Below are positions 2,778-10,662 of a DNA stretch of 42,679 bases, in pieces. Numbering within the stretch: the stretch's first letter is position 1; every line of letters starts with the position of its first letter. A program made the translations under genes and the position numbers. This DNA is from a virus, in IMG/VR virus record IMGVR_UViG_3300048592_000419, positions 1 to 42,679 of that record. The stretch is one strand, 5' to 3'. The notes beneath the pieces are model-generated. The model searched no databases, had not been told where the DNA came from, and worked only from the letters and a program-made list of their open reading frames with translations.

Positions 2778-2969
2778 ATGTACGCCGAATTAATTGAAAA
2801 ATTATCCAACCCGGAAACGCTGGTGTTTAAATGCACGCCAGCGGAGCAAGAACAAAAAAGCCCCTCCATAATCCTCGAATGGATTATGGATTTTCCCGAG
2901 TACATTCGGTCTTACTCCCCAATATCCGGGCGTTTTTTAGCGGGCCGAAATTTATACAAAATAATTTAA
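2778..2969 (+). CDS. Hypothetical protein, 63 aa
   Basis: This is the first rightward early gene. The ATG at 2778 follows AAAACAAAGAACA, the conserved early context, and is preferred over an upstream in-frame start that would overlap the promoter. The protein is small, soluble and slightly acidic in its first half (MYAELIEKLSNPETLVFKC), with aromatic residues toward the end. No motif was recognised. A GC-rich hairpin follows the stop codon. Confidence 0.65.
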   Translation: MYAELIEKLSNPETLVFKCTPAEQEQKSPSIILEWIMDFPEYIRSYSPISGRFLAGRNLYKII

Positions 2970-2976
2970 CCTTGCC

Positions 2977-2994
2977 CGGGGGCCTTCGCCCCCG
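2977..2994 (+). terminator. Intercistronic hairpin
   Basis: A seven-pair GC stem (2977-2983 with 2988-2994) closes a CTTC loop. It is followed by CTTTCCTTC rather than a clean T run, so it may be a weak terminator, an RNA-stability element or part of the leader of the next gene, whose ATG is 32 bases downstream. Confidence 0.6.
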
Positions 2995-3025
2995 CTTTCC
3001 TTCACCTTCAAAAACAACTAGAACA

Positions 3026-3421
3026 ATGGCACGCATATTCAACAACACACAAGAAATTTTCGACTACTTCCTTGGCGCCGCCAACATCGAGGTTTGGCCG
3101 ACCGAGGGCACAGAGCCTATTAAAATCCAAATTACCGACCTGCTCACCTGGGCAAGCCTTAACACTATGAAAAAGTACGAGGCCTACGAAGTAGATTACT
3201 TCGACGACACCCATGTATACATGACTTGCGTGGGTGAATTAGGCGACGACGTAAATTGCAGCCTCACCAACAACGATTGGTGGGTGGAGATTGGCCAGAA
3301 AGACCAAATGCTGATCGACTATTTGAACGACCCGCAAAACGTCCGCTTCACCGACTGCCGGACGGTCGCCGATCTGCCAACTGAATTTCTCACCGCCGCC
3401 GAAAAAGCGGCTAAAAATTAG
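3026..3421 (+). CDS. Hypothetical protein, 131 aa
   Basis: The start at 3026 follows AACAACTAGAACA, the clearest example of the early start context; the frame stays open upstream only because there is no stop in the hairpin region. The protein is acidic and soluble, begins MARIFNNTQEIFDYFL, and has a run of Asp and Tyr in its middle (AYEVDYFDDTHVYM). It ends in a basic Lys/Ala stretch. No known domain was recognised. It sits directly before another small unknown gene with the same start context and before the recombinase. Confidence 0.75.
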   Translation: MARIFNNTQEIFDYFLGAANIEVWPTEGTEPIKIQITDLLTWASLNTMKKYEAYEVDYFDDTHVYMTCVGELGDDVNCSLTNNDWWVEIGQKDQMLIDYLNDPQNVRFTDCRTVADLPTEFLTAAEKAAKN

Positions 3422-3425
3422 AACA

Positions 3426-3608
3426 ATGTACGTATACATCAGATCTGAACCGCAACTTTGGACAGTAGGTTTTTACGACCCCACAGGCAAATGGGTGCCC
3501 GAAAGCGACTGGAATACGCGGGAAGAGGCCGCGTATCGTGTTGCGTGGCTAAACGGCAGACAACAAGACACTAAGCCAGTCCGTGACAGCAAAACTTTTA
3601 TTGTTTAA
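3426..3608 (+). CDS. Hypothetical protein, 60 aa
   Basis: The start is four bases after the preceding stop, in the context AAAATTAGAACA, so it belongs to the same early operon. The product is a small protein rich in Trp, Tyr and Arg (for example TVGFYDPTGKWVPESDW, then REEAAYRVAWLNG). A beta hairpin followed by a helix is plausible, but no family was recognised. Confidence 0.65.
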   Translation: MYVYIRSEPQLWTVGFYDPTGKWVPESDWNTREEAAYRVAWLNGRQQDTKPVRDSKTFIV

Positions 3609-3626
3609 CATCTAAAAACTCGTACA

Positions 3627-4229
3627 ATGAAAACAAGCGAAACAACGAGCGCGATCTTTGCCGCCCTGTGCGCGTTCCAAAGCGAATGCGGCCCAGTTTC
3701 TTTTGATAGCTCAAACAAGTTCTTGGGCAACAAATACGCAAGCCTGACCGCACAGCGCGAACACACGCGCCCAATGCTAGGCAAGCACGGCCTAGCCGTT
3801 GTGCAGGGCGTAGAGGGCCACGAAATGTTAACGCGCATCTGCCACATATCCGGCGAATGGCTGGAATTTTCCGCGATTATGCCGGAACTGGCAGAGGAGA
3901 AAGGGAAAAGCGGAGCGCAAGTGATGGGGTCGATTATTACCTATATGCGCCGGTATGCTTACGCCTCCGCTTTGGGCCTTGTGAGCGACGAGGACAACGA
4001 CGGCAATAAGCAGCAAGCCACCGCCGTACCTGCAAAAAAGCCGGTGCCAACTGCAAAGCAGATTGCAAAAGTAGCGGAGCGCATAGCACACGGCGAAGCC
4101 GCCGCGCTCGTTGGCTTTTTCGGCGCATTTGATGTAAGTGAAGATGTGGCAATTGAATTACTTGCGTCTATTGACGATCTGAAGGACGACATAGACGACG
4201 AGCCGAATATTGGCGACTATACAACGTAG
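3627..4229 (+). CDS. erf: ERF-family single-strand annealing recombinase, 200 aa
   Basis: The protein matches the ERF superfamily, phage proteins that bind single-stranded DNA and anneal complementary strands in recombination and repair. The N-terminal two thirds has the family layout, with LGNKYASLTAQREHTRPML near residue 32 and GSIITYMRRYAYASALGL near residue 99, the latter close to the typical TYARRYAL block. DEDNDG follows at about 120. The C-terminal part (130-200) is a Lys/Ala linker and an acidic end, DDLKDDIDDEPNIGD, of the kind often used to contact other replication proteins. The start context is AAAAACTCGTACA. It is encoded among early genes, upstream of the methylases and replication genes, where it may also act in genome circularisation or concatemer formation. 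Confidence 0.9.
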   Translation: MKTSETTSAIFAALCAFQSECGPVSFDSSNKFLGNKYASLTAQREHTRPMLGKHGLAVVQGVEGHEMLTRICHISGEWLEFSAIMPELAEEKGKSGAQVMGSIITYMRRYAYASALGLVSDEDNDGNKQQATAVPAKKPVPTAKQIAKVAERIAHGEAAALVGFFGAFDVSEDVAIELLASIDDLKDDIDDEPNIGDYTT

Positions 4230-9309: not shown

Positions 9310-9775
9310 AGCATCAACAACCGCCCACGCTCCCGGCACCACGCGCCGACAGTCGCAAGAGGCCTTAATCCTCGCTTGGATTATGCAGTTACCGCAAACG
9401 TTAACCACACTCGCACAGCTAACCGGATTACCTAAAAACACAATCAGCGGGCGGCTATCCGATTTACAAGCGAAGGGAATAGTAGTCGGCTTTGAAACCG
9501 CGCCGGAGGTGACGAGCCGGGGGCACATGATAAACGTCACGGTGTACGATTTTGAGCCGGACGAACACCGGCAGATCGACCACGCATACAACCGCCGCCG
9601 GAATTTGGCCATTGCTCGAATCGAAAGCAGCCTAAAGAACGACCTAGAGTTTTTGCCGCAATTCCTTGTGGCTGCTATGCGCGCTTTTCTGCAACTTGAA
9701 AAAGAATTAGGGCGTCTTCACAGCGATTACCAACAGCCGGGGCAGAGGCCGCCGGATAAATTCACGGGCAAATGA
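9299..9775 (+). CDS. Winged helix-turn-helix protein, 158 aa
   Basis: Residues 18-70 form a winged helix: SQEALILAWIMQLPQTLTTL, then AQLTGLPKNTISGRLSDLQA as the turn and recognition helix, then a wing with GIVVGFETAPE. The remainder is helical and basic (DHAYNRRRNLAIARIESSLK) with a Gln/Pro-rich tail. It overlaps the preceding gene and overlaps the methyltransferase start by four bases (ATGA), so these genes are one translational unit. It could regulate the early-to-middle switch or assist the methyltransferase; neither is shown by the sequence. Confidence 0.7.
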   Translation: MKTKASTTAHAPGTTRRQSQEALILAWIMQLPQTLTTLAQLTGLPKNTISGRLSDLQAKGIVVGFETAPEVTSRGHMINVTVYDFEPDEHRQIDHAYNRRRNLAIARIESSLKNDLEFLPQFLVAAMRAFLQLEKELGRLHSDYQQPGQRPPDKFTGK

Positions 9776-10662
9776 AACAAATTGAACTTTTCGCAGGGAT
9801 CGGCGGCTTTGGCCTTGCGGGGCGTTGGGCAGGCATCGAAACGGTTTGCCAAGTTGAAATAGACAAATTTTGTCAACAGGTTTTAGCAAAAAACTTTCCT
9901 AATGTACGACGACACGACGATATACACACCTTTGACGGCACAGCCTACGCAGGAACAATTGACCTTATTTCAGGAGGTTTCCCTTGTCAACCATTCAGCC
10001 GCGCCGGAAAACGAAAAGGAAATGAAGATGACCGCGCGCTCTGGCCACAGATGCTTAGAATCATTCGAGAAGTTAAACCGACCTGGGTTGTTGGTGAAAA
10101 CGTTTTTGGGCTGCTCACAATGGACGGCGGGCAGGTATTCGACGAAATATGCACTTCGCTGGAAGATGAAGGCTATCAAACGCAAGCGTTTGTTATTCCA
10201 GCTTGTGCCGTCGGCGCTCCGCACAGGCGCGACAGGGTTTGGATTGTTGGCCACGCCCAACACTTTAGATGCAATAGCACCGAAAACAGAAAAAGCAGTG
10301 ATAAGGGAATCAACAATAACGCGTCCAAATCGAACAACATTTTCAAATCTGCGCGACCAGATTTTTCATGGCTATTTACTCCCAACCCCCGCCGCCCGCG
10401 ATCACAAGGGAACGAACAGCGAGGCGCATTTAAGCAAGGGCAAGGGGCATCGGGGCCAGCTCCCGAATTTCATAAAATCACCAGCCAGTGGCTTGAACAC
10501 TGGTATGAAGCTGCAACCCGCCTTTGTCGAATGGATGATGGGATTACCGGACGGGTGGACAGACATAGAGCGAAACGATTGAAGGCGCTCGGCAATGCGA
10601 TTGTGCCGCAAGTGGCTTATTTGATTTTTGAAGCAATAAAAGAATACGAAAATGGCGACTGA
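9772..10662 (+). CDS. dcm: C5-cytosine DNA methyltransferase, 296 aa
   Basis: It transfers methyl groups to cytosine C5. Motif I is FAGIGGFGL at 7-15, motif IV GGFPCQPFS at 68-76 with catalytic Cys72, motif VI GEN at 108-110, and motif VIII HRRDRVWIVG at 151-160. The late motifs RLCRMDDGI and RLKALGNAIVPQVA are in the last 60 residues. The region between 165 and 240 is rich in Asn, Ser and Arg and does not look like a normal target-recognition domain. In this region a second frame (9902-10582) carries its own recognisable motifs. No cognate restriction enzyme is adjacent, so it is probably an orphan phage methylase. The start overlaps the preceding stop. Confidence 0.9.
   Translation: MKQIELFAGIGGFGLAGRWAGIETVCQVEIDKFCQQVLAKNFPNVRRHDDIHTFDGTAYAGTIDLISGGFPCQPFSRAGKRKGNEDDRALWPQMLRIIREVKPTWVVGENVFGLLTMDGGQVFDEICTSLEDEGYQTQAFVIPACAVGAPHRRDRVWIVGHAQHFRCNSTENRKSSDKGINNNASKSNNIFKSARPDFSWLFTPNPRRPRSQGNEQRGAFKQGQGASGPAPEFHKITSQWLEHWYEAATRLCRMDDGITGRVDRHRAKRLKALGNAIVPQVAYLIFEAIKEYENGD
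9902..10582 (+). CDS. Nested +1-frame protein inside the C5 methyltransferase gene, 226 aa
   Basis: This frame lies wholly inside the methyltransferase gene. It is not a plain shadow. SGHRCLESFEKLNRPGLLVK and WTAGRYSTKYALRWKMKAIK are followed by FGLLATPNTLDA, then YLLPTPAARDHKG, and near the end LQPAFVEWMMGLPDGWTDIE. From memory these blocks recur in a family of phage proteins encoded beside C5 methyltransferases, including LLPTP repeats and FVEWMMG-P-GWTD. The same DNA near 10520-10565 gives RLCRMDDGI in the methyltransferase frame and FVEWMMGLPDGW here, both typical. Its start is uncertain because the ATG at 9902 lacks a good context. It may be a separate gene, or a downstream part reached by frameshifting. 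Confidence 0.6.
   Translation: MYDDTTIYTPLTAQPTQEQLTLFQEVSLVNHSAAPENEKEMKMTARSGHRCLESFEKLNRPGLLVKTFLGCSQWTAGRYSTKYALRWKMKAIKRKRLLFQLVPSALRTGATGFGLLATPNTLDAIAPKTEKAVIRESTITRPNRTTFSNLRDQIFHGYLLPTPAARDHKGTNSEAHLSKGKGHRGQLPNFIKSPASGLNTGMKLQPAFVEWMMGLPDGWTDIERND

Follow-up and report, generated by a model that had tools for sequence, protein, structure and literature searches.

Two nested reading frames in a phage C5 methyltransferase gene

The stretch of phage DNA analysed here, referred to below as the window, is 42,679 nucleotides long. Two ORFs overlap on its plus strand, a C5 cytosine methyltransferase ORF in frame 0 (alpha) and a shorter ORF in the +1 frame (beta), both of them present at the coordinates given in a preliminary description of the sequence. 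The features are as follows.

9772..10662, + strand: alpha, C5 cytosine methyltransferase ORF, 296 aa; motifs I-VIII and X, with motif IX absent in-frame
9902..10582, + strand: beta, +1-frame ORF, 226 aa counted from ATG 9902; PHROG 1008 family
9772..10260, + strand: alpha catalytic part, motifs I-VIII, residues 1-163; pLDDT mostly >90
10261..10536, + strand: alpha residues 164-255, predicted disordered and nearly unconstrained in the alpha frame; overlaps the conserved part of beta
10373..10411, + strand: beta LPTP block YLLPTPAARDHKG, residues 158-170; part of a putative target-recognition region
10511..10564, + strand: beta motif-IX-like block LQPAFVEWMMGLPDGWTD, residues 204-221; aligned with canonical motif IX via type-A relatives
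10579..10638, + strand: alpha motif X LKALGNAIVPQVAYLIFEAI, residues 270-289; high-confidence helix

Motifs are named by the convention of the C5 methyltransferase literature. The names also match usage in PMC3404938.

Alpha matches Pfam PF00145 with an E-value of 9e-54 (183.5 bits, cut-off 22) and PHROG 363 with an E-value of 6e-86, and NCBIfam also identifies it as a C5 cytosine methyltransferase. The catalytic motifs I-VIII are found in order, and this part of the protein aligns with M.HhaI residues 14-170 (phmmer). Residues P71, C72 and Q73 of the PCQ motif IV, E109 and N110 of the ENV motif VI, and G274 and N275 of motif X are invariant in the 36 rows of the alignment. In the interval from motif VIII to motif X, the alpha chain has neither a target-recognition region nor motif IX. 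The preliminary description was apt in placing motifs in the zero frame as far as VIII and then at the C-terminal end, motif IX being the one that is missing from frame 0; a motif-IX-like block, AFVEWMMGLPDGWTD, lies in the beta frame. The beta frame also holds the LPTP segment, which in single-chain relatives sits between motifs VIII and X. Over residues 15-222 beta matches PHROG 1008, a family labelled 'DNA methyltransferase' (E 1.2e-27), and it matched no Pfam or NCBIfam model. Sequence searches of the PDB with beta gave no match, and no HNH family is among its matches in PHROGs, Pfam and NCBIfam at E-values up to 1.

In the AlphaFold2 model of alpha, motifs I-VIII and the motif X helices are mostly of high confidence, and residues 167-255 have a pLDDT <50 almost throughout. 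The best structural match of this model is M.HhaI (Z 26.1, 3.2 Å, 207 residues aligned). Beta modelled alone with AlphaFold2 gave a poor prediction, with a mean pLDDT of 58.6 and a pTM of 0.28; judged from its motifs, it may correspond to the small domain of the enzyme.

The methyltransferase gene lies downstream of a DnaB-like helicase. A PHROGs scan named no restriction enzyme among the nine neighbouring ORFs, and two ORFs downstream gave weak endonuclease matches. An ORF at window positions 12792-13847 matches nuclease, ParB-like and DNA methyltransferase PHROGs (phrog_940, 620 and 498) in different parts of its length, and its product is a multi-domain protein encoded near the nested gene.

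Synonymous codon choice in alpha encodes beta

Conserved motifs of alpha leave a shadow in the +1 frame, and for this reason even sequences with shuffled synonymous codons score tens of bits against a beta profile. A plain similarity match in the +1 frame alone is therefore not evidence of coding, and synonymous codons were accordingly shuffled as the test, using as the null shuffles that preserve the alpha protein and alpha codon usage. Over the tested stretch, the +1 frame of the window contains no stops, against 4.0 expected from the shuffles (p 0.010). Across 67 unique homologous coding sequences there are 63 stops in the +1 frame compared with 353 expected; for the +2 control frame of the same sequences the figures are 886 and 980.

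A beta profile was next applied to 53 of these 67 coding sequences, those that carry motif IX in alpha being excluded, and was cross-validated by training on half of the loci and scoring the other half. In 53/53 loci, the window included, the real +1 frame scored above all 100 of its own shuffles. The window frame reached 207.5 bits, against 93 on average and 133 at most for its shuffles; shuffles commonly average 40 to 90 bits, and most real +1 frames score 150 to 247. The +1 frame has no stop at all in 45 of these 53 loci and one or more in the other 8.

Loci L002-L080 were found with beta, so the openness of their +1 frames is biased. A further set (L088-L247) was found with alpha only and comprises the best 80 of 591 and the best 80 of 558 matches. 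It is not a random sample, and at least two members, L089 and L092, are contigs already met with in the earlier set. When scored with a beta profile built from loci L001-L087 and the window, 73/73 full-length viral loci and 60/64 full-length genomic loci were dual coding by the score criterion; only exact duplicate loci had been removed and near-identical ones remain, so these counts are not independent events. The four genomic loci below the criterion are L230, L236, L241 and L247, and L203 yielded no alpha. In single-chain controls, +1 stops occur at close to the expected rate (17 vs 15.7 in L232, 16 vs 18.4 in L239, 24 vs 21.4 in L240, 18 vs 19.6 in L243 and 23 vs 21.3 in L245), which supports the shuffle null. 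The score criterion is not perfect, as L239 passed it all the same despite its 16 stops.

We conclude that synonymous codon choice in alpha encodes beta, and that the overlap is not a product of chance, on the strength of both the shuffled stop counts and the beta profile scores.

Four loci (L045, L188, L197 and L210) have unusually long alpha ORFs with 2-5 stops in the +1 frame. These may contain insertions resembling the out-of-frame HNH elements described in PMC11855218.

Constraint passes from alpha to beta after motif VIII

Constraint in the two frames was compared in 50 of the 53 loci, L022, L041 and L058 having been dropped by the motif patterns. Over motifs IV-VIII, alpha scores above all shuffles in 50/50 loci and beta in 43/50. 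In the region between motifs VIII and IX, beta exceeds all shuffles in 48/50 loci, with a mean of 35.0 bits compared with 2.3 for the shuffled sequences, and alpha exceeds beta-preserving shuffles in 12/50 (7.8 vs 3.9 bits). The summed column entropy of the motif IX block (18 columns, 50 loci) is lower in beta, at 13.8 bits, than in alpha, at 23.8 bits, and for this reason the conserved alpha sequence VDDG...RVDR looks like a shadow of the beta sequence EWMMG...GWTD.

The positions at which the DNA varies follow the same division. Nucleotide differences over motifs IV-VIII peak at the third position of alpha codons (0.39 of codons). In motif IX (0.46) and in the LPTP block (0.66) they peak at the third position of beta codons, and the alpha third position is the least changed in both; these counts come from 15 pairs picked by beta identity for the VIII-IX region and from all pairs for the LPTP block. 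It can be seen that constraint switches from alpha to beta after motif VIII, and that beta is constrained almost alone between motifs VIII and X. The preliminary description had proposed examining synonymous constraint in each frame among homologues, and such constraint is present in both frames over motifs IV-VIII and mainly in beta between VIII and IX.

Relatives (L016, L044, L061, L062 and others) differ in how many LPTP-like units the beta frame has between motifs VIII and IX, from one to about five, and each unit is mirrored in alpha as a DAPDT-like shadow.

The frame that carries motif IX differs among relatives

The beta profile gave no direct match to canonical single-chain methyltransferases, and the C-terminal part of beta was therefore assigned to motif IX by way of intermediates. 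In type-A relatives (L060 and others), the sequence FVEWMMG.P..W occurs in the methyltransferase frame directly before the GN of motif X, and this block aligns with the canonical motif IX, LTPREC..LQGFPD, of single-chain enzymes. In addition, in the single-chain relatives L230 (3548-5026) and L070 (1855-3174) the methyltransferase frame itself contains LPTP segments, motif IX and motif X, and their LPTP/motif IX stretch is matched by the beta profile with a probability of 98.2 and an E-value of 6e-14. By this alignment, motif IX would be supplied by beta in the window. Since actinobacterial type-A relatives have motif IX within the alpha frame, beta is not needed everywhere for this motif.

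A pattern-based survey of 259 loci placed motif IX in the +1 frame with motif X in frame 0 in 139, both motifs in frame 0 in 18, and both in the +1 frame in 3; these are lower bounds, the patterns having missed motif X in 48 loci with motif IX in +1 and having found no motif IX in 45. The three loci with both motifs in the +1 ORF are L061, L068 and L194, in which alpha-frame homology ends after motif VIII. Only L187 has a motif IX pattern in both frames; there the frame-0 match follows motif X, so it is not motif IX. In L116 (652-1465) alpha stops prematurely, and the region of motif X is found in a +1 ORF that has no recognisable motif IX, so that this locus is either a decayed gene or a sequencing error.

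Occurrence and candidate translation starts of beta

The beta profile matched 13/299 genomes of one phylum and 7/299 of another. Thirty-five loci, 31 of them from genomes and 4 from phage records, were examined: alpha overlaps beta in the same +1 relation in 33 of them, the remaining two (L269 and L281) are stop-containing matches, and no standalone beta lacking an overlapping alpha was found among the 35. One viral contig, L031, carries two tandem nested alpha/beta pairs (1951-2715 and 2829-3629) whose sequences have clearly moved apart, as though a single phage had two specificities.

An in-frame ATG for beta occurs within 110 nt upstream of the PCQ motif in 155/192 loci, compared with 56 expected and a shuffle maximum of 65. 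A beta start with a Shine-Dalgarno (SD)-like site is found in 92/192 loci, against 23 expected and a shuffle maximum of 30. These enrichments are consistent with translation of beta from a start of its own. In the window the candidate starts are ATG 9902, which has no SD-like site, and TTG 9959, which has AGGA upstream. A perfect AGGAGGT is also present at 9972-9978, over the alpha Gly-Gly codons just before PCQ; no beta-frame start codon follows it at a useful distance, and it is probably fortuitous.

A proposed methyltransferase in two polypeptides

The reading that we consider very probable is that the nested genes encode a C5 methyltransferase made of two polypeptides, alpha being catalytic and beta holding motif IX together with a likely target-recognition function. 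It builds on the dual coding, on the complementary motif content of the two frames and on the switch in constraint after motif VIII. Motifs I-VIII and motif X of alpha, connected through a disordered stretch, would form the catalytic large domain. Beta would contribute motif IX and, we infer, the target-recognition region, and so make up the small domain, and the two chains should associate into an active enzyme. The role in the phage may be to modify its own DNA against host restriction. Such protective self-modification is likely because no restriction enzyme was recognised beside the gene, and a lone protective methyltransferase would be the simplest role.

The preliminary description offered three possibilities for the second frame, namely true overprinting, a frameshift product, and two protein families that arose as frame variants of one DNA segment. 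The depletion of stops, the 53/53 loci above their shuffles, the constraint region by region and the alpha-only sample all argue for true overlapping genes. Homologues of the methyltransferase are open in the +1 frame, and +1 homologues are widespread. The third possibility also holds, at least here, as PHROG 363 and PHROG 1008 match two frames of the same DNA. A point that goes beyond that description is that the two products complement each other, with the +1 frame holding the motif that is absent from frame 0.

A programmed frameshift, by which motifs I-VIII would be read in frame 0 and a slip to +1 would add the LPTP segment and motif IX in one chain, seems to us very improbable. The fused product would have a nearly complete set of motifs, and in L061, L068 and L194 motifs IX and X do occur together in the +1 frame after alpha-frame motifs I-VIII. 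However, motif X of the window remains in frame 0 and would be missing from the product; constraint on beta extends over motifs IV-VIII as well (43/50 loci), which would be needless for a fusion made after motif VIII; and ATG and SD-like starts are enriched in the beta frame. Nor do slippery sites, which the preliminary description proposed to look for, favour a slip: none of the heptamers found in the window lies between motifs VIII and IX, and they do not lead from the alpha frame to that of beta, the only one in slip phase being TTTCCCT at 9978, where a -1 slip misses the beta frame.

It is unlikely, too, that the +1 ORF is an independent overprinted gene unrelated to methylation, for example one for a small regulator or an anti-defence protein. 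The N-terminal part of beta over motifs IV-VIII is conserved and has no counterpart in single-chain methyltransferases, and no known fold or family accounts for beta; both points count in favour of such a gene. Yet beta is never found without alpha (33/35 loci, the other two being stop-containing), it carries exactly the motif that alpha is without, and single-chain relatives hold the same region in the methyltransferase frame. That openness and similarity in the +1 frame are a by-product of alpha conservation and codon bias has a vanishingly small probability. The tens of bits that shuffled sequences still reach with the beta profile would fit this, but all 53 real frames exceed every one of their own 100 shuffles, in which alpha and its codon usage are preserved, and between motifs VIII and IX it is beta that is conserved and alpha hardly so; moreover, +1 stops are near expectation in the single-chain controls. 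Provided that the shuffle null has no flaw that escaped the +2 control, chance or shadow ORFs are ruled out by the shuffled stop counts, the profile scores and the alpha-only sample.

The two-polypeptide reading can be taken a step further, although we regard this extension as rather less than an even bet. The whole small domain would lie in the +1 frame, with an origin separate from that of M.EcoHK31I; the alpha stretch opposite it would be a meaningless linker, and beta would have acquired a new N-terminus overlying the catalytic motifs. If this is true, recognition could diversify through changes in how many LPTP units beta has, with the catalytic frame left as it is.

Implications for annotation and cloning

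Dual coding at this gene is well supported and apparently widespread, and a two-chain mechanism would follow from it by inference. In this gene PHROG 363 and PHROG 1008 correspond to different frames of a single segment, and annotations variously fuse them, leave one out, or list them as two methyltransferases. Should beta be required for activity, the annotated protein would not by itself reveal the specificity of many phage C5 methyltransferases, and optimising the codons of alpha for cloning would abolish the enzyme. The gene also offers a clear example from nature of a protein region whose reading frame changes between relatives, and nested, split and single-chain forms can all be compared.

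Comparison with known systems

A search of the open-licence PMC literature turned up no description of phage C5 methyltransferases that are nested. The pair gp56-gp57 of Paenibacillus phage Jacopo is nested in the same manner: the alpha and beta profiles match the two Jacopo frames at +1 (L248), and beta of the window matches PHROG 1008. Both Jacopo coding sequences are labelled DNA methyltransferase, and the record thus gives two methyltransferases and says nothing of one enzyme in two parts. Some Paenibacillus phage records thus mark both frames as methyltransferases and others just one; in HB10c2 the larger frame alone is annotated. Phage methylase genes of the ShiLan type likewise contain a second protein out of frame, in this case an HNH insertion that is described in PMC11855218 as a mobile homing endonuclease of patchy distribution. 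Unlike that element as described there, the second frame of the window overlaps the catalytic motifs, is near-universal in its clade and, we propose, may complete the enzyme.

Two bacterial loci, L236 and L244, come closer to M.EcoHK31I. In M.EcoHK31I (recognition sequence YGGCCR), reported by Lee, Kam and Shaw in 1995, the smaller gene lies inside the larger, out of frame with it, and the products are of about 309 and 176 aa; both are reportedly needed for in vitro methylation. The alphas of L236 and L244 are 309 and 314 aa long, and the nested +1 ORF is 176 aa. It carries a canonical motif IX, RRLMPSECE.LQGFP, and weakly matches the C-terminal half of C5 models (PF00145 below cut-off, and TIGR00675). 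A type II restriction endonuclease gene adjoins both pairs, which we presume to be EcoHK31I-like; none was recognised next to the gene of the window. In an 80-row alpha tree, which does not include EcoHK31I itself, they group with canonical methyltransferases (98/94), apart from the clade of the window, and the two arrangements may therefore have arisen separately. The beta profile does match the EcoHK31I-like beta at 95%, but this was not counted because the match lies over the part that overlaps alpha motifs, where the alpha shadow can create similarity. Plasmid searches gave no named relative of EcoHK31I.

M.AquI, a second enzyme to be compared, recognises CYCGRG. According to PMC3404938, it is a two-polypeptide C5 methyltransferase with its break in the variable region, the smaller subunit consisting of the distal variable region and motifs IX-X; in M.EcoHK31I, also of two polypeptides, the larger has motifs I-VIII, motif X and a predicted target-recognition domain, and the smaller has only motif IX. 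The proposed enzyme of the window would resemble M.AquI, as described there, in being a two-polypeptide C5 methyltransferase and differs in that motif X stays in alpha, whereas motifs IX and X are together in the smaller M.AquI subunit; loci L061, L068 and L194 resemble the M.AquI split more. Like M.EcoHK31I, the window has an alpha with motifs I-VIII and X and without IX, and motif IX would be in a second predicted polypeptide. In contrast to the target-recognition domain predicted for the larger M.EcoHK31I subunit in that account, however, the region between motifs VIII and IX of the window is constrained in the beta frame. On the best reading of these comparisons, the proposed enzyme would work in the manner of M.EcoHK31I, with the difference that beta would hold a putative target-recognition region as well as motif IX.
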